A stretch of DNA of 64,000 bases from Hyphomicrobiales bacterium (GTDB lineage: Bacteria; Pseudomonadota; Alphaproteobacteria; Rhizobiales; Xanthobacteraceae). The position numbers and the translations under genes are program-made. How positions within the stretch are numbered: position 1 is the first letter of the stretch; the number at the start of each line of letters is the position of its first letter. A model generated the notes under the pieces. That model searched no databases, was not told the origin of the DNA, and was given only the letters and a program-made list of their open reading frames with translations. The stretch spans positions 248,001 through 312,000 of the forward strand of contig JAFKKG010000012.1 of the NCBI GenBank assembly GCA_017305715.1. Direction: 5' to 3'. Below, in pieces: positions 19,765 to 30,030 of this stretch.

Positions 19765-20683
19765 CGGCTGAAACCGACATCCGCTCGGGATGCCGGGGCA
19801 CCTCGCTCCCGCGCGTGCGCGCCGAGATCGCAACCGTCGCGACCACGCCGGCGGCGAACAGCATGATCTGCGGCGTGATGATCTCGTCGTTGAAGACGGC
19901 CGCGAGCGCAAACACGACGAAAGGCTGCAGCAATTGCACCTGCGAGACGCGGGCGATGCCGCCCATCGCCATGCCGGCGTTCCAGGCAAAGAAGCCGATC
20001 CATTGCGAGAACAGCGCGACGTAGAGCAGCCCCAGCCACGGCTTCAGGGGGATCTGGCTGAGTTCGGCCGGCATCGTCAGCGCGGTGGCGGGGATCGAGA
20101 ACGGCAGCGCGATCACCAGCACCCAGCTGATGACTTCCCAGCCCGGCATCTGCGCGGTGAGCCGGCCGGAGAAGGCGTAGCCGATCGCGGATACGATAAC
20201 GGAGGCAAGCAGGAACCAATCGCCGGTCGACAGCGCTCCGCCGCCCTGGCGCAGCGCAAACGCGATCACCAGGGCGGCGCCCGCGAACGAGGCGATCCAG
20301 AACAGCGGCCGCGGCCGTTCATGGGTGATGATGACGGCGGCGAGCGCCGTGCCGATCGGCAGGATGCCCAGCACCACGCCGCCGTGCGAGGCGTCGACGG
20401 TTTGCATCCCGACGGCCATCAGGAACGGGAACAGGACGGCGACGCAGAGCATCGTGATCACGAGTTGCGGCAACAATGCGCGAGGCGGCAGCGGGCGACG
20501 CAGCACGAGAAGCAACACTAGCGAGCACAGCCCGGCGATCGCCGTGCGCAACGCGGTCAGTGCAATCGGATCAATCGCCGACACCGCGAGCCGTGTCGCC
20601 GGCAGCGTGCCGCCAAAGATCAGCACGCCGACAAAGCCCAGCAACAGACCGAGACGTGCGCGCGAGACATGAGGGGAGGTCAT
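19739..20683 (-). CDS. EamA/DMT-superfamily transporter
   Basis: 314 residues with ten hydrophobic helices and two EamA repeats: residues about 13-140 (LGLLLGFVGVLIFGGTLPAT) and about 155-290 (LLASVIVSAIGYAFSGRL). Proteins of this superfamily export metabolites or amino acids; the substrate cannot be inferred. It is convergent with the MATE gene. Confidence 0.88.
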   Translation of the reverse strand: MTSPHVSRARLGLLLGFVGVLIFGGTLPATRLAVSAIDPIALTALRTAIAGLCSLVLLLVLRRPLPPRALLPQLVITMLCVAVLFPFLMAVGMQTVDASHGGVVLGILPIGTALAAVIITHERPRPLFWIASFAGAALVIAFALRQGGGALSTGDWFLLASVIVSAIGYAFSGRLTAQMPGWEVISWVLVIALPFSIPATALTMPAELSQIPLKPWLGLLYVALFSQWIGFFAWNAGMAMGGIARVSQVQLLQPFVVFALAAVFNDEIITPQIMLFAAGVVATVAISARTRGSEVPRHPERMSVSAVTPPATRT

Positions 20684-20755
20684 GGTGCGACTGGTTAGCT
20701 GCTTTGCCGGTCAGCGTACAGCAATCTACTCGGAGCACATGGCGGCCATGCGCCG

Positions 20756-21499
20756 CTAGCTCGGAGCAATGCTGCTCCATACCAATCCGAGCCCGGACAG
20801 AAACAGCAGGCCCAGCACGATATCGTAGAAATTGCGATCGCTGAGGGCCTGATAGGTGCGCATGCCAATCCGTGCGCCGATCAGCGTGCCCGGCATGGCG
20901 AGCAGGGCGAGCCAGGCCACCTCCGGTTTGACGAAGCCGCTGGCGATTTGCAGCAGCAAGGCGGCGCCGAGCACGGAGCCGTTGAAAATCTGGAACACGC
21001 CGCGGCGCTGCTCCTTGGTCCAGCCGCGCACGCTGGCCCACAAGGTCGGCAGCGGGCCGGACAGGCCGGCGAGCCCGCCGAGGATGCCGCCGGCGAATCC
21101 GACCACGGCGTCCGCCGGCTTGCCGCCGAAACGAAATGCCATCGGCTTGCGGACGAAAAAAAGAGCGGTCGGAAACAGCAGCAGCATCGCGCCGATGCTC
21201 AGCTTGAAGTGCTGCGGATCGGCCCGTACCACCAGCAGCGCGCCGACGGGCATGCCCGCAAGGCCGCCGATCACGAACGGCGCGGCGAGCCTGAAATCGA
21301 GCACCTTCCACATCGACGGCAGCGTCGAAATCTGCGAACTGACCGAGCAGATCAGCACCAGCGGCACGGCGAGCGCAGGCGGCAATATATAAAGCCAGAT
21401 CCCCAGCGCCATCAGCGCGGTGCCGAAACCGGCGAGCCCGGACACGAAGCCGCCGGCAAGCGCGCCAAACAGCAACACCGCATAGGTGGACGCTTCCAA
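20756..21499 (-). CDS. TSUP-family (TauE/SafE) membrane transporter
   Basis: 247 residues, about eight helices, with the glycine-rich repeat pattern of the sulfite exporter TauE/SafE family (GFVSGLAGFGTALMALG and GFAGGILGGLAGLSGPLP). The start is taken as TTG at 21499, which has GGAGAG about 8 bases upstream. An ATG upstream in frame at 21577 would add 26 residues encoded by the palindromic repeat at 21513-21592, so that extension is rejected. The substrate may be a sulfur or carbon oxyanion. Confidence 0.85.
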   Translation of the reverse strand: MEASTYAVLLFGALAGGFVSGLAGFGTALMALGIWLYILPPALAVPLVLICSVSSQISTLPSMWKVLDFRLAAPFVIGGLAGMPVGALLVVRADPQHFKLSIGAMLLLFPTALFFVRKPMAFRFGGKPADAVVGFAGGILGGLAGLSGPLPTLWASVRGWTKEQRRGVFQIFNGSVLGAALLLQIASGFVKPEVAWLALLAMPGTLIGARIGMRTYQALSDRNFYDIVLGLLFLSGLGLVWSSIAPS

Positions 21500-21512
21500 T
21501 TTTTTCTCTCCG

Positions 21513-21592
21513 CCATTCCGGGATGGCCCGAAGGACCAGACCCGGAATCTCGAGATTCCGGTTTCGATGCTGCGCATCGCCCCGGAATGACG
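21513..21592. repeat. Palindromic repeat, CTCGAG family, copy 1
   Basis: The ends (CCATTCCGGG and CCCCGGAATGA) are inverted and the centre is the perfect palindrome GGAATCTCGAGATTCC. Relatives lie at 41849-41927 and 57496-57576. This copy abuts the TTG start of the TSUP transporter gene. Confidence 0.85.
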
Positions 21593-21682
21593 TCTGTGAA
21601 TTGAGCGCCGACATTTACACGACGCTGCCAGCAGGTACTATCGCAATTCAAGCCTTCAACAGTAACTTCATGGAAGCGGCCA

Positions 21683-22390
21683 ATGAGCTCAAAGACTTTC
21701 CTGGTGTGTCATGGTGCGTGGTCGGCGGGTTGGGCGTGGAAGAAGATGCACCCGTTGATGCAGGCCGCCGGACATCGGCTGGTGACGCCGACCTATACCG
21801 GGCTCGGCGAGCGCGCGCATCTGGCAACTCCCTCGATCGACCTCGAATCCCATATCGAGGACGTGCTCAACGTCATCACATATGAAGACCTGCACGACAT
21901 CGTGCTGGTCGGCCACAGCTATGGCGGCATGGTCGCAACCGGCGTCGCCGATCGCGCGCGGGACCGTGTCGCGCAGCTGATCTTTATCGACGCCTTCGTG
22001 CCGGAGGATGGCCAGTCGCTGTTCGACATCAATGAACCCGGGCGGCAGCCGATGCTGGACGGCGCCAGGAAGGGTGATGGCTGGCGCATTCCGCCGATGA
22101 CGTCGCCGCCGGACACCTCGGCTGAAGACGTCGAATGGCTGGCGGCGCGACGCGTCGCGATGCCGGTCAAATGTTTCGAGACCAAACTCAAGCTGCGGGG
22201 TGGCAAACTGAGTTTGCCGCGCAGCTATATCTACGCCACCCGCTTCCCGCCGGCGGACACCTTCGGTCCGTTTGCGCGGAGGGCGAAGAGCGATCCGGCG
22301 TGGCGCTATTTCGAGATCGACGCCAGCCATTCGCCGAACGTGACCGCGCCGGAAACGCTGATGGCGCTACTCGAGAAGATCGTCGCCTAG
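21683..22390 (+). CDS. Alpha/beta hydrolase (EstC/salicylate-esterase-like)
   Basis: 235 residues. The oxyanion-hole region is LVCHGAWSAGWAW, the nucleophile elbow VGHSYGGM (Ser), and the catalytic histidine in DASHSPN near residue 219. This matches the small esterases related to plant methylesterases (methyl salicylate/pyrethroid type). Probably cytoplasmic. Its stop codon is followed immediately by the left 32-bp repeat of the accessory island, which shows that the island joined directly behind this gene. Confidence 0.88.
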   Translation: MSSKTFLVCHGAWSAGWAWKKMHPLMQAAGHRLVTPTYTGLGERAHLATPSIDLESHIEDVLNVITYEDLHDIVLVGHSYGGMVATGVADRARDRVAQLIFIDAFVPEDGQSLFDINEPGRQPMLDGARKGDGWRIPPMTSPPDTSAEDVEWLAARRVAMPVKCFETKLKLRGGKLSLPRSYIYATRFPPADTFGPFARRAKSDPAWRYFEIDASHSPNVTAPETLMALLEKIVA

Positions 22391-22422
22391 AAAATGGCGA
22401 GGGGTCCGGCGCGTTACGCCGA
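22391..22422. repeat. Left 32-bp direct repeat (attachment-site-like) of the accessory island
   Basis: Identical over 32 bases to 27747-27778 (begins AAAATGGCGAGGGGTCCGGC and ends GCGTTACGCCGA). The right copy is part of the rnpB terminator; this left copy lacks the ACCCCTC that completes the hairpin. It therefore looks like the second att site created by insertion. Confidence 0.8.
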
Positions 22423-22619
22423 TTTCGGCTTTGGGCGATGTCGGATCGGATCGTTTCTTAACGGTCGTGAAACACAATAACCATAGGCTCAACTGCAATT
22501 TTAGAGGAGGTCGAAATGGGTCGTTTCGATCCATAACGAACTCGATCAGATTGCACGATTGTTGTCACCAATGTTGTCACCAAATCAGGCCCGGACGAGA
22601 TGACCGAGAAGACCTTGGA

Positions 22620-22778
22620 GCATATCAGCGTTCGGAACATCTGGAGGCGAGGCGCAAGCTGGCGGGAGCTTGGGAAGCGTTCGCACTGAGGCATCTCGAC
22701 GCGCCGCTCGTGCCGAGCCTGCCGGCCCGGGTGGAGCCAAGCCGGAAAAGGGTGAAAGCTGCCGGAGGCGTCACATGA
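22620..22778 (+). pseudogene. C-terminal fragment of a tyrosine (P4-type) integrase
   Basis: In frame, AYQRSEHLEARRKLAGAWEA resembles the final helix of phage/P4-type integrases (AY-R-x-[DE]-x5-RR-x-L-M-x-x-W). No catalytic R-H-R-Y box remains: only about 200 bases lie between the left repeat and this scrap, too few for the enzyme. The fragment lies just inside the left att-like repeat, where such integrases usually sit. The rest of 22423-22964 shows nothing else but a short tandem TTGTCACCAA repeat. Confidence 0.5.
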
Positions 22779-22964
22779 GCGGGCCGGGCGAGGGCACGAA
22801 AAGCCTCTTGGGGACCCGGCCGCCTGAAGTGGCCGACGATAGAGAGCTCATCGTCGAAGCATAAGAAGATCAAGACAACCCCCACGCATTCCACGTCTCG
22901 CGCGGTCGCCCGACCGCGATCATCTTGCCTTTCGCTACGACGCTCCGTTTGCGACCGACTGTTG

Positions 22965-23465
22965 CTACTCAGTATCTGATTTAGAGGCCGCGCGTGTCAC
23001 ACGGGTTTGGACAGTCACGTTACTCTCTATTGTCATGTTAAGCGCGCTCGCGGGCAATACATAGGCGTTGAAGAACTTTACGATACCGTCAAATATTGTA
23101 CCCGTGGGGATTTCAATCCTTATGTGGAAACGCCGCTCATTCAGGTCTGCTGATTGTCGGGTGTGATGGCCCGAATATCCGCCTTTGGCAGCCTTGAACA
23201 GTTTGATCGCATTCTTGGTCGTTCCAAACATATCGATGTCGAGATGTTCTGGCTTCTGATCCCATCTTGCTATGAAGTAAGGGCCGTGCCCGGATTTCGG
23301 TGCAACTTTTAAAACCTCCAGCTTCCCAGTCTCGGAAAGAACCCCGTCGCAGGGCTCCGACCTGTAATCTGGGTGCACGATTGTCGGATGAATTTCTACA
23401 TCGCTCACTTTAGCGACGCGACCGCGCTGGTTGATCTGATCAATCTTTTGCTGCCGGTCCTTCAT
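22965..23465 (-). CDS. Unknown 166-residue protein, third gene of the SIR2-like set
   Basis: No family recognised. The chain is soluble and mixed alpha/beta, rich in His, Lys and Thr. Its C-terminal third has hydrophobic alternation (FHIRIEIPTGTIFDGIVKFF). It starts 9 bases after the stop of the SIR2-like gene on the same strand, so it is almost surely co-transcribed. Codon use and base composition match the rest of the island, not the chromosome. The repeated co-location with the SIR2-like gene in other genomes would have to be checked by search. Confidence 0.65.
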   Translation of the reverse strand: MKDRQQKIDQINQRGRVAKVSDVEIHPTIVHPDYRSEPCDGVLSETGKLEVLKVAPKSGHGPYFIARWDQKPEHLDIDMFGTTKNAIKLFKAAKGGYSGHHTRQSADLNERRFHIRIEIPTGTIFDGIVKFFNAYVLPASALNMTIESNVTVQTRVTRAASKSDTE

Positions 23466-23474
23466 GCGGTGGCC

Positions 23475-24377
23475 CTAGCTAAACTCTACAATCTGTCGCA
23501 TCAGATCGAGCGTCTGAAAATTATTGAGCCTTATCTGACCTCCGCACATTGCGGCGCAGCCACCAATCTCTTTTCCCGTTAAGCCGTATGCCGTGCCTTG
23601 ATACGCTTCGGGCGCAATACTGTCTAAGCCCAATCTCTGGACATTTCTTGACCCGAAGCCGAACCCCGCAAGGTAGACCCGCTTTGCTTTTGCGAGCAAC
23701 TCCTTGGCTTGCGCAAAATCTTTGTCACGACCGTCAGTCAGTTCCTCATGAACGACTTTGATCTCTTTCATAACTATACCCATCTTTCGTGCGTCAATTT
23801 GGCTGTCGCCGAAGTCAACAGCACTGCCGCCGTTCTGCCACGATAGATGGCCTAATCGGCCATGCAAGTGGACTATAGGTATTCTGCTCACAACGGCGGC
23901 AGTCTCATCTGTCGTTCGGCCGAAAGCGTTTTGAAGGCTGATGAATAGAAAGTGCTCGACACAGCGATCATAGTTGAAAGTTACAAACGATACCTGGTTG
24001 TCAGCGAACTCTTCTAGCGAGCTTCCGATCATATTTCCGTAAAGGTACGTCAGCCAATTTCTATCATTCTGCCAAAGCCGCTCGTGGTTCTCGCCATGAA
24101 GAAGCTCGATGCCCATCATGGCCTTCCCAATATCCATGAACTCCGGGCGGCGCTCTAGAAATGCATCGACGGATGAGAGCCCAGAATACTTCAACGCTTC
24201 CACAAATTGATTAATGGCCTTTCGCACGAACGGCGTTGTGTTCGTGAGATGGGCTGTATGCCCCGTGTCAGAATTGTATTTTTCCAAAATGTTCAGGCGT
24301 AGTTGGTAGCCCAGCGGCAAACCATAAGGCTCGCTTGCGCCTGCCCCGAGGACAAAAACGGTAGGGGTTGATATCAA
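23475..24377 (-). CDS. SIR2-like NAD-binding domain protein
   Basis: 300 residues with the SIR2-like pattern found in antiphage proteins: FVLGAGASEPYGLP (residues 8-21, dinucleotide loop), FVTFNYDRCVEHFL (131-144, the NYD element) and IVHLHGRLG (168-176; His172 at the catalytic-histidine position), then VYLAGFGFGSRNV near 235 for the distal nucleotide site. It almost fills the whole protein, with no obvious extra domain. SIR2-family proteins in Thoeris, DSR and SIR2-Argonaute systems cleave NAD+ when a phage is sensed. Function here is inferred from those families. Middle gene of a minus-strand set of three. Confidence 0.75.
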   Translation of the reverse strand: MISTPTVFVLGAGASEPYGLPLGYQLRLNILEKYNSDTGHTAHLTNTTPFVRKAINQFVEALKYSGLSSVDAFLERRPEFMDIGKAMMGIELLHGENHERLWQNDRNWLTYLYGNMIGSSLEEFADNQVSFVTFNYDRCVEHFLFISLQNAFGRTTDETAAVVSRIPIVHLHGRLGHLSWQNGGSAVDFGDSQIDARKMGIVMKEIKVVHEELTDGRDKDFAQAKELLAKAKRVYLAGFGFGSRNVQRLGLDSIAPEAYQGTAYGLTGKEIGGCAAMCGGQIRLNNFQTLDLMRQIVEFS

Positions 24378-24433
24378 GGATTGTCTCCGGTTCGCGCCGT
24401 ATGTCGCGTAAATATACCGCTTTTAGACCGGCT

Positions 24434-25414
24434 TCACTTTACGTCCTTCACACTTTTGATCAGATCACTCAGTTGAGCCAACGGCGGCGGCGGCGATTTT
24501 CCGAACTCCAAGTGCGGAGTTAGCCCGGTGGCCAAAAGTGCGAAATCTGATACGGATGTATGTTCGCCACTCAAGCGCAGAAGGTCCGCTCTGGCCATGT
24601 AGAACGCAGATAATCGAATATTGTAGCGATAGAGCGAGACCAGAATGCTCACGAGAAAGCCGATGACGGCCAGTACGCCGAACCGCGTGATGCTGGTCTG
24701 TAGGAGCCGAAGAAGCAGGTTATTATTATCTGCGTCTGCTGCCGGCGGCCGGTTTGTGCCGCCTAGTGCGACAGCCTGCACCTTGGCTTCGTAGATAGAG
24801 TTCCGAACGGACTGTAGAAAGTTGAGTTTCTCCGATATTTCTTGACTGCGTTTTTCCGCCGCCAGAAGAGCGGTTGGATCGAACAAGATGTTCTGCGCCT
24901 CCAGTGCGGCCGTCGCCTCATCGAAGGCGGACTTCGTCAACCGCAAGTCAACACTTGACGGATCGCAACCATCAAAAGTCAAACGCAGAGTGTTCATGAG
25001 CGAAGATAGTTCGGGCTTCTGCAGCAATAAGGATATTTGACTAGCTATTTCTTTACCGGTGGGCGGAGGATCGTTCCGAAAGCTGATCTGATGGATCGGA
25101 GGGACGGCGGGTTGAGATTGCCACCTGCGAAAGAATTCCGCATGAGCCTTGCCGCATGCGATTCTCTCCTTCTCTGCCGTCCCTCCTACGGACGTATTCT
25201 CTTGGTTGAGTTTTGTAAGTTCCGCTTGGGCATTTTCGAGCCGCTTGTCGAAGTCTTGGACGCCGATGTCTCGCGCCGTTAAACTTGAAGCCGTGAAGAC
25301 TACATACCCACCGAATGCCATAAGGATGACCACCATGAGCAGGAAGAGCCATGCCTGCCACTGCAAGACTTCACTGCGTCTTTCAAATCGTTTTATGGCA
25401 GTGCCAATTCTCAT
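24434..25414 (-). CDS. Two-helix membrane protein with a coiled-coil loop
   Basis: 326 residues. Membrane helices lie at about 21-43 (AWLFLLMVVILMAFGGYVVF) and 244-263 (RFGVLAVIGFLVSILVSLYR). By the positive-inside rule both ends are cytoplasmic and the loop of about 200 residues is periplasmic, with heptad-like stretches (DFDKRLENAQAELTKLNQEN and LLAAEKRSQEISEKLNFLQS). The C-terminal 60 residues are cytoplasmic. No family recognised. It is the first gene of the set, 56 bases before the SIR2-like gene, so it may be the membrane partner (sensor or effector) of that protein. Confidence 0.7.
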   Translation of the reverse strand: MRIGTAIKRFERRSEVLQWQAWLFLLMVVILMAFGGYVVFTASSLTARDIGVQDFDKRLENAQAELTKLNQENTSVGGTAEKERIACGKAHAEFFRRWQSQPAVPPIHQISFRNDPPPTGKEIASQISLLLQKPELSSLMNTLRLTFDGCDPSSVDLRLTKSAFDEATAALEAQNILFDPTALLAAEKRSQEISEKLNFLQSVRNSIYEAKVQAVALGGTNRPPAADADNNNLLLRLLQTSITRFGVLAVIGFLVSILVSLYRYNIRLSAFYMARADLLRLSGEHTSVSDFALLATGLTPHLEFGKSPPPPLAQLSDLIKSVKDVK

Positions 25415-25585
25415 CTCTTAGCCCCAACAAACGATTGTGCGTCCGGCGCGCAGCTTTCTCGGCGCGGCTTAGCTCATTAGCCCAAAGCAAACCCCTCTGA
25501 TTGCCGGCACGTAACGTAGCGGAACTCGCCCCGCGCGCAAGTGGGCAAGTTTCAAGCCCGGCGGGAAACGCTCTGAATGAGAAAA

Positions 25586-25621
25586 AGCCGCCGCGCCGGG
25601 TTGAGGTTCGGCGCGACGGCT
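25586..25621 (-). terminator. Terminator-like hairpin in a gene-poor stretch
   Basis: AGCCGCCGCGCC / GGCGCGACGGCT form a 12-bp stem with one mismatch, followed on the minus strand by TTTTTC. No intact minus-strand gene now lies before it, so it may belong to a gene lost by decay. Confidence 0.5.
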
Positions 25622-25763
25622 CTTCAGAAGGATGGCCCGTGATACGCAAGGCCGAATGCGACTGTCGCTGCTTCCCGTGAGGAAACCATTAGCGAACGAC
25701 GTTGTGAGCTTGAGCCGGTTGTGAGAAGCGATCTTGAGGAGACTTTCAACCGAGGGGCAACCA

Positions 25764-25887
25764 ATGATCAGATGCGGCTGTGTCGCTGTGCTGCTGGCGT
25801 TGACCTTTTCGACCCCCGCTTTTTGCGCAAGACGTTAGTCCCGCATTGACCCAAGCGGATCATATCGTTCAGTCCATCGATCACTGA
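25764..25887 (+). pseudogene. Relic of a small exported protein with a homopolymer frameshift
   Basis: ATG opens a signal peptide (MIRCGCVAVLLALTFSTPAF). A run of five T then pushes the frame to an early TAG. With four T it would read AFAQDVSPALTQADHIVQ and end at TGA 25885, giving an AFA-QD signal-peptidase site. It lies in the 25415-26374 gap, which otherwise holds only the hairpin above and a doubtful 43-codon frame. Confidence 0.35.
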
Positions 25888-26057
25888 GCTATCCATATCG
25901 AGCCGCCCCTGATCTCTTCCTCTATGCCCCATTAATCATCTGCTGACCGGTGTCGCTGGTGCGGCGTTAGTGCAAGAGCGTGGCCGGCGGGCACTTCCCC
26001 GCCTTCTTGCACTTCTGACACACGAGCACTCGCCAGATCGTGCACGCACGTCGTGGA

Positions 26058-26189
26058 TTAGTGCCTCTCCCTCGATACTGCCGCTCGCTCGGCGAGGATG
26101 GTGGTCATCGCACGGCTCTTCGCAAGCTCCTTCTTCAGCGCCTTGCGGTCGCCGGCGGACAGCGGGGTCGGGTGGTGCTCCGGGGCCAT
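26058..26189 (-). CDS. Doubtful 43-residue open frame
   Basis: ATG to TAA, 43 codons, charged and helical (AGDRKALKKELAKSRAMTTI). The amphipathic pattern looks protein-like, but no ribosome site is visible and no family is recognised. It may be a remnant of an element gene. Confidence 0.25.
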   Translation of the reverse strand: MAPEHHPTPLSAGDRKALKKELAKSRAMTTILAERAAVSRERH

Positions 26190-26374
26190 GAAGCCATCAT
26201 GCGCGCGCTGCCGGGTCTGGCGCAATCGCCCAAGATGTCGGGCACGACCTACGTGGACCTCTACTGCCTGTCGTAATAGTCGAAAAATTCAGGGAACGGG
26301 CTTCCCAGACCTCTTTACAATCCAAGTCCTCCAGAGTTGTGTGCGTTGGGGAACAAAACTGGGGAGAGGGGTCA

Positions 26375-26848
26375 ATGACCGCGAAGCTGCGCATCAAGGC
26401 AAAGGGGATCGAGATCGAATGGGAGGGCGAAGTCGACTACCTAAAGAACGATTTGCCCGATCTCATCGCAGCTATTGTTGCCGCGCTTGGAATTAGTGCA
26501 GGCGATGATGGCGACGACGATCCGAACGAGATCGAGAATACTCCACTCAATCCGGCGATGAAATTCACCACAGCCGCGTTGGCGGCAAAAATTCAACCGG
26601 GAACCGCACAAGACCTTTTCAAAGTTGCTCTCGCGAAACTGCAACTGAGCGACAAGATTGAGCCCGCCGAGCGCGCACAAATTCATAATGAGATGAAGAA
26701 CGCGCCAAAATTCTACAAGCCCGCAATGAGGACCAATTTAAGCAAGACGATTGACGCGTTGCTTACGTCAAACAGTATCAATGAACCTTCAACCGGCAAA
26801 TTTGCGCTCACTCCAAAAGCGCAGGCGGAAATTGAGAGCAAGATTTGA
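26375..26848 (+). CDS. Unknown 157-residue protein, partner of the HEPN-motif gene
   Basis: Start ATG at 26375 has GGGGAGAGG upstream. The first 40 residues look like a small beta/alpha element (AKLRIKAKGIEIEWEGEVDY), then an acidic spacer (DDGDDDPNEIE). The C-terminal half ends in a pattern like a winged helix (NLSKTIDALLTSNSINEPST, FALTPKAQAEI). Three bases separate its stop from the GTG of the HEPN-motif gene, so the two are one operon. No named family recognised; it may sense a signal or restrain the HEPN protein. Confidence 0.65.
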   Translation: MTAKLRIKAKGIEIEWEGEVDYLKNDLPDLIAAIVAALGISAGDDGDDDPNEIENTPLNPAMKFTTAALAAKIQPGTAQDLFKVALAKLQLSDKIEPAERAQIHNEMKNAPKFYKPAMRTNLSKTIDALLTSNSINEPSTGKFALTPKAQAEIESKI

Positions 26849-26851
26849 TCC

Positions 26852-27565
26852 GTGACAGAGCTTCGCGATGCGTTGACACGCAAAGATATTTCGAAGACGG
26901 ACAAGTATCTTCTGATCGTCGCACATCACGACGGGCCGGTAAGGAATGCTGACATCAAAGCCATAGCGAAGGAGAACGGCTGGAAGGATGGCGCGAGGTC
27001 GGCCCCGGCTTCATTCCTGTCCAAAACAGCGCACGCACTGGCGCTTCCTCTCGGCTGGACCCTCACAGGCCCCGGCCGAGCAGCGATGGAGGATCGAGGT
27101 CTCATATCGCGGATCGGCGTTTTGACGCCAGTCACTCAGACGCTGGAAAAATATATTCTTGACCTTCACGACCCGGACAAAGCTCGCTTCGTCGAAGAAG
27201 CTATCGCCTGCGTGAAAAACAAATCGTACCGCGCGGCAATCGTGCTCACGTGGGTCGGCGCGCTCTACCTGCTGTATCAACATGTGCTGCATCAGAAGCT
27301 CGCAGAGTTCAACGCAGAGGTTTATCGGAGATTTCCTAAGAGCAAGGCCGCGAGCAACATCGACGATCTTGCAGGATTAAAAGAGGCCGAATTTTTGAAC
27401 GTGCTGGAGCACATCCAAGTACTGACGAAGGCGGAGGCGAAGGAACTCGTAGGCTGTCTTGATCGACGTAACACCGCCGGACATCCGAATTCGCACACGT
27501 TCACCGAGGTCGGTGTAGGAAATCACGTCGAGACATTGATCACGAGTGTTTACCGACGCTATTAG
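26852..27565 (+). CDS. HEPN-motif protein with N-terminal winged-helix-like domain
   Basis: 237 residues from GTG. Residues about 15-85 look like a winged helix (TDKYLLIVAHHDGPVRNADI, SFLSKTAHALALPLG, LTGPGRAAME). Residues 108-235 look like a HEPN four-helix domain: SYRAAIVLTWVGALYLLYQH is a typical HEPN helix, and R206-N-T-A-G-H211 fits the R-x4-H ribonuclease motif. HEPN proteins with this motif act as RNases in toxin-antitoxin and abortive-infection systems. An MNT nucleotidyltransferase remnant, the classical HEPN partner, begins 14 bases downstream. Activity is inferred from motif and context only. Confidence 0.65.
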   Translation: MTELRDALTRKDISKTDKYLLIVAHHDGPVRNADIKAIAKENGWKDGARSAPASFLSKTAHALALPLGWTLTGPGRAAMEDRGLISRIGVLTPVTQTLEKYILDLHDPDKARFVEEAIACVKNKSYRAAIVLTWVGALYLLYQHVLHQKLAEFNAEVYRRFPKSKAASNIDDLAGLKEAEFLNVLEHIQVLTKAEAKELVGCLDRRNTAGHPNSHTFTEVGVGNHVETLITSVYRRY

Positions 27566-27579
27566 CACAGTGAGGACGG

Positions 27580-27746
27580 ATGACCATCCAGATGGAAGAC
27601 GAATGGTTGTGCGGCTTGCGCGACTGGGCAGGCAAGAACGGCAATGTTCGCGAGTTGTAGTTATTCGGCAGTCGAGCCGATGGCACTGCGACGCAGGACA
27701 GCGATGTCGATCTCACCGAACGCAAAAAGTGGCGAAAACCTGCACA
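27580..27746 (+). pseudogene. MNT-type nucleotidyltransferase remnant with amber codon
   Basis: ATG 27580 with GAGG upstream reads MTIQMEDEWLCGLRDWAGKN then GNVREL and TAG (27658-27660). Past the TAG the same frame continues LFGSRADGTATQDSDVDL, the GSR-x10-SDVD catalytic motif of minimal nucleotidyltransferases, where family members have a residue such as Trp at the TAG. The frame ends against the right 32-bp repeat, so the 3' part is missing as well. It was probably the antitoxin of the preceding HEPN gene. Confidence 0.7.
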
Positions 27747-27778
27747 AAAATGGCGAGGGGTCCGGCGCGTTACGCCGA
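27747..27778. repeat. Right 32-bp direct repeat (attachment-site-like), within the rnpB terminator
   Basis: Identical to 22391-22422. Here the repeat runs into ACCCCTC (27779-27785) and so completes the rnpB terminator hairpin, which marks this side as the native junction with the chromosome. Confidence 0.8.
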
Positions 27779-27785
27779 ACCCCTC
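27755..27785 (-). terminator. Intrinsic terminator of rnpB
   Basis: Stem GAGGGGT-C-CGGCG / CGCCG-A-ACCCCTC, 13 positions with one mismatch, loop CGTTA. On the minus strand it is followed by GCCATTTTTG. It lies just past the 3' end of rnpB. Confidence 0.8.
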
Positions 27786-27789
27786 ATTC

Positions 27790-28221
27790 ACAGATATCAG
27801 CCAGCCTGTAAGCCGGGTTCTGTAGGGCACCGCCACTTGCGCGGACGGTACGTGACGGCCATTCCTCTGGGACCATGTTCGCACATGGCCTCGAGCAACC
27901 TACCCGGACGGCGAGCCTGACATCGCCCTGCGGTGTTATCGCCTTGCGACGAACTTACCGCGTTGCCGTCCCTATTCGGTTTTGCTCCCGGTGTGGTTTG
28001 CCATGCCGGCTCCGTTGCCGGACCCGCGGTGCGCTCTTACCGCACCTTTTCACCCTTGCTGCCCCCTCCCTTTCGGGTGGAGGAGCGGTTCGTTCTCTGT
28101 GGCACTTTCCCTGGGGTCGCCCCCGCCGGACGTTATCCGGCACCGTATGTCGATGGAGCCCGGACTTTCCTCTCCCGCAGCCTTTCGGCCCTAGCGGGAG
28201 CGGCCGTCCGGCCGACTGACG
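27790..28221 (-). ncRNA. rnpB: RNase P RNA (class A)
   Basis: Catalytic RNA of RNase P, which trims tRNA 5' ends. On the minus strand the conserved elements occur in the right order: GAGGAAAGTCCGGGCTCC near the 5' end (P4 side), AGGGTGAAAAGGTGCGG with TAAGAGCGCACC in the middle, and ACAGAACCCGGCTTA near the 3' end. The ends AGTCGGCC and GGCTGGCT pair as P1 (with G-U pairs). Length of about 430 fits alphaproteobacteria. Ends are estimates to within a few bases. Open frames drawn across it on the plus strand are not genes. Confidence 0.95.
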
Positions 28222-28226
28222 CCTTA

Positions 28227-28255
28227 CGCATGGAGGCTGGGGGGCGTGGCGTCAA
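28227..28255 (-). promoter_or_regulatory. Candidate rnpB promoter
   Basis: On the minus strand TTGACG (28255-28250), 17 bases, CATGCG (28232-28227), placing the start near 28221, where the RNA begins. The -35 match is good and the -10 match poor. Confidence 0.4.
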
Positions 28256-28358
28256 GTCACTAAACCTGCGCAAAATAAACTATCCTGAAGATGTCGTTTC
28301 GCGGCCGGCCCGTTCGACCGGGTGTCGGCGATCCAGCCGATCAAGAGGGAGTAACGCG

Positions 28359-28709
28359 ATGCAATATCTGTTGTTGATCTATCGGAACGATGCCGAATAC
28401 GCCAAAATGGATGCCGCCGAACGGAAGCAGGTGAGCGCCGAATATGGCGCGTTCACGCAGGCCATCGTGCAGAGCGGCCATTTCAAGGCCGGCGACGGCT
28501 TGCAACCGACGAGCACGGCAACCACGGTGCGGGTCCGCGACGGCAAGATGCTGACCACGGACGGTCCGTTCGCGGAGACGCGCGAGCAACTCGCAGGCTA
28601 TTATCTGGTCGAGGCCAAGGATCTCGACACCGCGCTTTCGATCGCCGCGCGAATTCCGGGCGCCAAGACCGGCTCGATCGAGGTGCGGCCGGTCATGATT
28701 TATGACTGA
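28359..28709 (+). CDS. DGPF/YCII-related domain protein
   Basis: 116 residues beginning MQYLLLIYRNDAEYA, with LTTDGPFAETREQLAGYYLV, the DGPF motif that names this YCII-like family. GAGGGAG precedes the ATG by about 7 bases. These proteins are regularly encoded beside ECF42-type sigma factors, as here (76 bases upstream). They are thought to act with that sigma factor; the activity is not known. Confidence 0.88.
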   Translation: MQYLLLIYRNDAEYAKMDAAERKQVSAEYGAFTQAIVQSGHFKAGDGLQPTSTATTVRVRDGKMLTTDGPFAETREQLAGYYLVEAKDLDTALSIAARIPGAKTGSIEVRPVMIYD

Positions 28710-28785
28710 CGGCGAAGCCGTCATTCCCCGATGCGCAATTGCGCATCTGAGGGCGCGAAGCGAACCGGATAGGTAGCGCAGCCTT

Positions 28786-30030
28786 ATGACCCCTACCGAG
28801 GTCGAAAAAATATTCCGCGACGAGGCGGGCAGGGCGCTGGCAACCCTGATCCGCCTCGTCGGCGATTTCGATCTCGCCGAGGATGCGTTGCAGGATGCCT
28901 TCGCCGTGGCGCTGGAGCGCTGGTCCAGCGCGGACATGCCGTCCAATCCGCGCGCCTGGCTGGTCAATGTCGGGCGCAACAAGGCGATCGATCGCATTCG
29001 CCGCAGCATCACGCTTCGCGGCAAGCAGCAGGAACTGACGCGCGAAATCCTGCTGAATGCGTCGGCGCCTGACGAAGCTGCGGACCATGTGCTCGACGAC
29101 GACATGTTGCGGCTGATCTTCATTTGCTGCCACCCGTCGTTTGCCGCGGAAGTGCAGGTGACGCTGACGCTGCGTACGGTGTGCGGACTCTCGACGGCGC
29201 AGGTGGCGCGGGCGTTTCTCGCCAGCGAAGACGCGATGGCGCAGCGGCTGGTGCGCGCCAAACAGAAAATCCGCCTCGCCGGCATCGCCTATGAAGTGCC
29301 GGAACGCGAAGCGCTGGAGCCGCGGCTGCGCGGCGTGCTCGCGGTGATCTATCTGGTCTTCACCGAAGGCTATGCCGCTACCTCGGGCGAGGACCTGATG
29401 CGGCCGGATCTGGCGCGCGAAGCGATCCGGCTGGCGCGGTTGCTGGATGGGCTGATGCCCGGCCGCGGCGAGATCAAGGGATTGCTAGCCCTGATGCTGC
29501 TGCACGATTCCCGCCGTGCCGGGCGCCAGACCGCCGGCGGCGACATCGTGCTCCTGGAAGAGCAGGACCGTTCGCTGTGGGATCAGGTCCAGATCGCGGA
29601 AGGATTGAAGCTGGTGGAAGAGGCGTTGCGGTTGCCGGGGCGACCGCAATCCTATGCCGTGCAGGCGGCCATCGCAGCGCTGCATGCGCGCGCGCCGAAT
29701 TATGCGGACACCGACTGGCGGCAGATCGCCGGGCTTTATGAGGTGCTGCTGCGGATCAGCCCGTCGCCGGTGATCGAACTCAATCATGCCGCCGCGCTGT
29801 CGATGGTCGACGGGCCGGCGCGGGCGCTCGACCTGATCGATGCGCTGGAGGCGCGGGGCGGGCTGAAGGGATATGAATTGCTGCCGGCCGTCCGCGCCGA
29901 TTTGCTGCGCCGGCTTGGGCGGCGCGACGCCGCGCGTGCGGCCTATCTGGCGGCCGCGGCCGCCACCCAATTAGAGCCGTTGCGGCGGCTCTATGCGCGG
30001 AGGATCGCGGAACTGGGCCAGGGCTGCTAA
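28786..30030 (+). CDS. ECF42-type RNA polymerase sigma factor with long C-terminal extension
   Basis: 414 residues. Region 2 is at about 10-75 ([33 protein letters not shown]) and region 4 at about 110-160 ([20 protein letters not shown]). A helical, TPR-like extension of some 200 residues then follows ([34 protein letters not shown]). This layout and the DGPF neighbour define the ECF42 group, in which the extension and not a classical anti-sigma factor is thought to control activity. No anti-sigma gene is present nearby. Confidence 0.9.

Follow-up and report, generated by a model that had tools for sequence, protein, structure and literature searches.

In the 64-kb window analysed here (the window being the whole stretch of DNA examined), the region between a chromosomal alpha/beta hydrolase gene and rnpB, the gene for RNase P RNA, holds 5,324 bp of inserted DNA (22423..27746) that is a decayed genomic island at the rnpB terminator. 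As an island it is of an ordinary kind, and rnpB as its target seems to be new, as far as we have checked. We propose that the island, equipped with a tyrosine integrase of its own, probably entered by site-specific recombination at the rnpB terminator and decayed later. An island inserted at this terminator had been suggested in the first-pass annotation, and the repeats, the empty sites of relatives and the composition support it; the role of an integrase we infer, helped by a gene remnant that the annotation did not contain.

The island is bounded by two identical direct repeats of 32 bp each, at 22391-22422 and 27747-27778, whose starts are 5,356 bp apart, in agreement with the first description of a pair bounding about 5.4 kb. 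This is the longest exact direct repeat of the window; the longest one in 200 first-order Markov sequences modelled on positions 20001-30000 was 17 bp. A repeat found widely had been named as an observation that would speak against an island, and we find exactly two copies in the genome itself (7.45 Mb, 51 contigs) with up to 3 mismatches allowed, the reversed 32-bp control giving no match there under the same limit. The right, attR-like copy lies within the intact rnpB terminator, a hairpin with 13-bp arms on the minus strand (27755..27785), and is located just past the 3' end of rnpB (27793..28219, minus strand), a class A RNase P RNA by its match to RF00010 (283 bits). Besides 6 nt from the 5' arm, it contains the loop, the 3' arm, GCC and the T-run; its first reading as half of the terminator hairpin is confirmed. 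The left, attL-like copy, also half of the terminator, begins immediately after the TAG of the hydrolase gene hyd1 (21683..22390, plus strand; Pfam Abhydrolase_6, 1.4e-21) and does not include the outer bases of the 5' arm. Folding gives -31.7 kcal/mol (z -5.0) for the full terminator stretch versus -17.7 kcal/mol (z -0.9) and an only partial hairpin for the left-copy stretch, as expected from the earlier remark that this copy misses the bases that finish the hairpin.

The enclosed DNA is of unlike composition, with 54.2% G+C within the insert against 64.9% in the flanking 10 kb on each side. When the insert was searched as DNA against 265 Bradyrhizobium genomes, with two candidate places scored per genome, it was complete in its own genome only; the best match in the 264 others covers 743 of 5,324 bp at 68%, in G133, over the SIR2-like gene described below. 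Foreign composition and sporadic distribution, as well as end repeats of which one completes the target gene, are marks of a tyrosine-integrase island, and all of them are present. In none of the 264 other Bradyrhizobium genomes do the island genes lie between hydrolase and rnpB, and relatives that keep these genes without the left repeat, raised at first as a possible objection, were thus not encountered.

Six Bradyrhizobium genomes present an empty site, in which the hydrolase gene is followed by one terminator copy and rnpB. The alignments from the hydrolase side and the rnpB side overlap by 32 bp in G028, 31 in G100, 30 in G115, 33 in G015, 31 in G233 and 28 in G045, and in G028 and G100 this overlap is the 32-bp repeat. 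The hydrolase stop of G115 runs directly into the terminator; the spacing between the two is 17 bp in G045, 19 bp in G028 and 24 bp in G100. The prediction that close Bradyrhizobium genomes would have an empty site is therefore borne out by these six, with their overlaps of 28-33 bp, but not by the four genomes nearest to the window genome in hydrolase DNA (G207, G012, G085, G240), which form its sister group in a tree of 30 genomes (support 100/99) and carry about 1.9 kb of other genes between hydrolase and terminator. By Pfam, the genes in G207 encode a regulator of AraC type and another alpha/beta hydrolase, and G012 has both open reading frames too. The window genome holds no close copy of the G207 AraC protein, the best being 26% identical over most of the protein. 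Given that the empty arrangement of G028 is nested among genomes with larger gaps in the same 30-genome tree, loss of the AraC and second hydrolase pair seems to recur, and such a loss must be assumed for the window lineage, before or after arrival of the island. A DNA query over the hydrolase region (21600-22422) matches 249 of the 265 genomes (E<=0.001; some of these matches are weak), and the stretch between rnpB and hydrolase is apparently a variable locus in Bradyrhizobium. On the 3' side of rnpB, depending on the species, there is the AraC gene with the second hydrolase, a TPR gene, a GntP-like gene, or nothing (L043-L062, L113-L127, L156-L161, L163-L222).

About 200-360 bp inside the left copy, on the plus strand at 22620..22778, lies what probably remains of a tyrosine integrase, a C-terminal piece oriented with its 5' end towards the repeat; it retains a presumed catalytic tyrosine and the stop codon, and the remainder of the gene is missing or unrecognisable. 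The frame 22620-22775 reads AYQRSEHLEARRKLAGAWEAF and, 4 residues later, DAPLVPSLPARVEPSRKR. The first part (AYQRSEHLEARRKLAGAWEAF) aligns with the extreme C-terminus of the L237 integrase and the second (DAPLVPSLPARVEPSRKR) with the extreme C-termini of the G045 and L225 integrases, and the window piece 22692-22764 matches the C-terminal end of the G201 integrase frame. The L237 and L225 enzymes have Arm-DNA-bind_3 and Phage_integrase domains, and from general knowledge of the integrase family we take the tyrosine of the remnant to be the catalytic one. Nine integrases were tried in a shuffle test: none of 300 shuffles reached the score of the remnant against three of them (G045, L237, L225), and 1 to 263 of 300 did so against the other six. 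Neither the 52-aa remnant nor its enclosing frame of 115 aa has a match in the profile libraries, and among solved structures the remnant finds no integrase, only two unrelated matches at chance level. A genus-wide search with the remnant puts four integrase loci on top, with weak E-values of 3.5e-4 to 1.5e-3; at a limit of 0.1, matches of some kind extend to 103 of 265 genomes, most of them judged to be chance. The identification comes, then, from position, frame, stop codon and tail alignments, profiles and structures being silent, and no intact integrase was found in the island.

The tail of this remnant is shared by islands in G177, G053, G045 and G201. The integrases of G177, G053 and G045, complete frames unlike the relic of the window, each lie just past the 5' half of a tRNA-Gly-like sequence that ends in the anticodon loop (judged by eye; ARAGORN calls no tRNA at these halves), and a fourth integrase (L146) likewise lies past a tRNA-Gly-like 5' half. 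These islands differ from ours in their target, a tRNA-Gly-like sequence in the first three, and in G201 a site beside a tRNA-Glu, which the integrase fragment adjoins. The window remnant lies by the partial terminator copy, just as the integrases with the same tail adjoin tRNA-Gly-like 5' halves. Kinship extends as a mosaic over the insert: 25958-26274 and 27592-27714 match DNA in G177, 25584-25668 and 22692-22764 match DNA in G201, and parts of 26376-27493 match DNA in G200, G160 and G050. A tandem repeat of two TGTTGTCACCAA units (22560-22583) was considered as integrase arm sites, which is not supported; in the 256 other Bradyrhizobium genomes searched it does not recur (up to 3 mismatches), and its two exact matches in genome contigs and three in viral contigs have no integrase recognised among the ORF ends inspected.

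The cargo begins with an ORF of 166 aa and no family by Pfam, PADLOC and profile searches (22965..23465, minus strand), followed by a SIR2-like protein of 300 aa, a possible phage-defence gene (23475..24377, minus strand). The latter has the SIR2 domain by which SIR2 phage-defence systems are recognised (PADLOC SIR2 6.3e-7; Pfam SIR2_2 8.9e-4, under its cut-off), with relatives in 10 other genomes among 297 of the order, in pieces of 24-38% identity. A known partner gene of SIR2 defence was not seen, as neither the 166-aa neighbour nor the 326-aa one (24434..25414, minus strand; probably a membrane protein by eye, of no family, with 74-77% DNA matches in G033) has a PADLOC match (E<=0.01). Further along are an 85-bp piece (25584..25668) that resembles, with 84% identity, the DNA at the end of the G201 integrase fragment, and a broken relative of a short gene common to several islands (25958..26274, minus strand; 72-83% matches in G177, G201 and G053). 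A piece of that short gene, about 100 bp (26092-26189) within 26080-26190, is matched in many Bradyrhizobium genomes. A conserved two-gene unit follows on the plus strand, found in the same order in G200, G160 and G050; its first gene (26372..26848) has 54-57% amino acid identity there and its second (26852..27565, 237 aa) 60-62%, the second bearing a DRRNTAGH motif (RX4H, HEPN-like by eye) and having no PADLOC match. The last feature is the start of a broken nucleotidyltransferase with an in-frame stop (27580..27714, plus strand), of which 27592-27714 matches at 79% (DNA) a G177 gene whose protein matches Polbeta/NTP_transf_2. The two-gene unit (26372-27565) beside this broken gene recalls HEPN/MNT pairs. 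Candidate defence-type cargo is plausible because the G177 stretch with the shared pieces bears a Drt3a/Drt3b reverse-transcriptase pair. This pair (L128:12053-16747 and L243) adjoins one integrase; a second integrase gene of G177, just past a tRNA-Gly-like 5' half, lies about 15 kb away. Shared pieces and integrase are about 20 and 37 kb apart in G177 and G053, where membership in a single island is assumed.

Is an integrase needed at all? Incoming DNA with rnpB, terminator and island could have joined at one end through homologous recombination in rnpB and at the other through an illegitimate junction within the terminator already there, whose 3' half would have stayed in place, and the repeat would then consist of donor and resident terminators. 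We regard this course as unlikely, and it is a duplication in G070 (L043:897-2898) that keeps it alive. There, the whole terminator is present twice, as copies of 66 bp with 95% identity on the two sides of a single TPR gene, which looks like a case of such recombination. By eye, the sequence after copy 1 is like that of TPR-bearing genomes and the sequence after copy 2 like that of GntP-bearing ones, which points to two different sources, and duplication of the terminator at rnpB can apparently arise without an integrase. That the 3' side of rnpB carries different genes in different species fits as well, and the identical 32 bp are present in G207, so that a donor could have had them too. Such recombination, however, leaves unexplained the integrase-like C-terminus at the expected end and in the expected orientation, and the kinship with other islands; in addition, no donor with such an order appears in 264 other genomes (at the two candidate places scored per genome).

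Other elements ending at the same rnpB bases, which the first-pass annotation had proposed to seek, were looked for at 101 other Bradyrhizobium rnpB loci, picked by hand (top rnpB scores, then relatives, then loci with no hydrolase nearby or a distant one). Only G070 has a clear second terminator half downstream (1 mismatch of 22), of a different kind, and the search thus went against that proposal; a 4-mismatch match at 12.4 kb in G039 was taken as chance. The DNA past the terminator was at least 2 kb in 98 of these loci, at least 5 kb in 84 and at least 19 kb in 69, and larger islands escape. A tblastn scan with 9 queries detected no integrase at the 101 loci or at 50 loci from other genera of the order, 30 of them scanned with flanks of 1.5 kb and 20 with flanks of about 9.5 kb; it was positive at all 8 control loci, including some from which the queries had been taken, and it detects relatives of the queries, such that serine recombinases and distant integrases would escape. 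The terminator 3'-half pattern is present in 130 of 265 Bradyrhizobium genomes, of which only G000 and G070 have more than one match. A single one-mismatch match to this half in G014 (G014:C478:27295-27313) is on a contig different from that of rnpB. Phages and plasmids bearing the rnpB end were also considered and set aside, the matches found being complete rnpB genes: the 3'-half pattern hits no viral contig, two rnpB 3'-end patterns hit 3 and 0, and the plasmid collection yields a single match, to a complete rnpB in Methylobacterium. The three viral contigs, from IMG/VR (L247:800-1149, L248:536-887, L249:65-392), carry a complete class A rnpB among many tRNA genes. A broad control used the flank of E. 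coli rnpB, and 3,131 of 5,426 genomes contain 80% or more of this query at a single place; the flank is repetitive (median 36 places per genome), and the count speaks neither for nor against such elements. We count against insertion by an integrase that the enzyme is not intact, that the closest relatives carry other genes and that no integrase was found at the 151 other rnpB loci scanned.

It is very improbable that the island belonged to a different target and inserted close by or at a secondary site, the 32-bp repeat stemming from a duplication of the terminator that came later. Judged by their tails, the nearest intact integrases do lie at tRNA-Gly-like sequences and not at rnpB, yet the empty sites put the junction at the repeat, and 32 bp of identity is a long stretch for a secondary integration site. 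An artefact of assembly or chance is hardly credible, for although the genome is a draft in 51 contigs, the locus lies within a single contig (C36), both flanks are matched in relatives and no chance repeat this long arose in the 200 models.

Returning to insertion by the island's own integrase, the attB site would be the rnpB terminator hairpin and the enzyme a tyrosine integrase of the Arm-DNA-bind_3/Phage_integrase type. The attP site would have borne the terminator loop, 3' arm and T-run, and crossover in or near the hairpin loop would leave rnpB with a complete terminator and move the former 3' half to the opposite end of the island, next to the hydrolase. One limit of the shared block lies 6 nt past the hairpin loop and the other where the T-run ends, both as expected of an attP with a replacement 3' end. 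Most of the integrase gene and some of the cargo would have decayed afterwards, and the present island may be regarded as a relic, probably immobile, that retains the SIR2-like gene and the two-gene unit. The repeats, the empty sites in relatives, the integrase-like C-terminus in its place and the mosaic kinship with other islands are direct observations; from them we infer that the enzyme of the remnant made the insertion, that the crossover fell in the loop, and the order of events. Since the three integrases with the same tail (G177, G053, G045) lie next to tRNA-Gly-like 5' halves broken in the anticodon loop, the comparison invites the idea that a hairpin loop may be the preferred crossover of these enzymes.

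The arrangement is like that of islands in tRNA and tmRNA genes, in which direct repeats duplicate the 3' part of an RNA gene and an integrase lies near one end (PMC7921747). It differs in that the block lies wholly in the terminator, beyond the 3' end of the mature RNA, in that the target is rnpB and in that the integrase is a relic. In Haloferax islands the integrase lies by the complete copy (PMC7921747), whereas here the remnant lies by the partial one. The TIGER/Islander set, for which an integrase gene is required, assigns 33.8% of sites to tRNA/tmRNA genes, 43.4% to coding and 22.8% to intergenic DNA, and rnpB is not named (PMC12424338). A report on fis-targeting PICIs (PMC10111431) describes identity blocks that can reach into a rho-independent terminator and an attP that usually bears a replacement for the end of the target; terminators in att blocks are therefore already known. 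The fis target described there is the end of a protein gene, unlike the RNA-gene end and the integrase relic found here. No report of an element at rnpB was found in the literature searched, and prior reports are possible.

The weight of a single decayed case is modest. We tentatively raise the possibility, to which we do not fully lean, that the intrinsic terminator hairpin of an essential non-coding RNA may serve as a ready symmetric core site for integrases, its loop being the crossover region as in an anticodon stem-loop, and that rnpB terminators may form a new class of island target. If the reading holds, island finders limited to tRNA and tmRNA genes would overlook sites at the terminators of other RNA genes, the locus would be an example of insertion at an essential RNA gene with its terminator retained, and it would provide a testable link between hairpin symmetry and the target choice of integrases.
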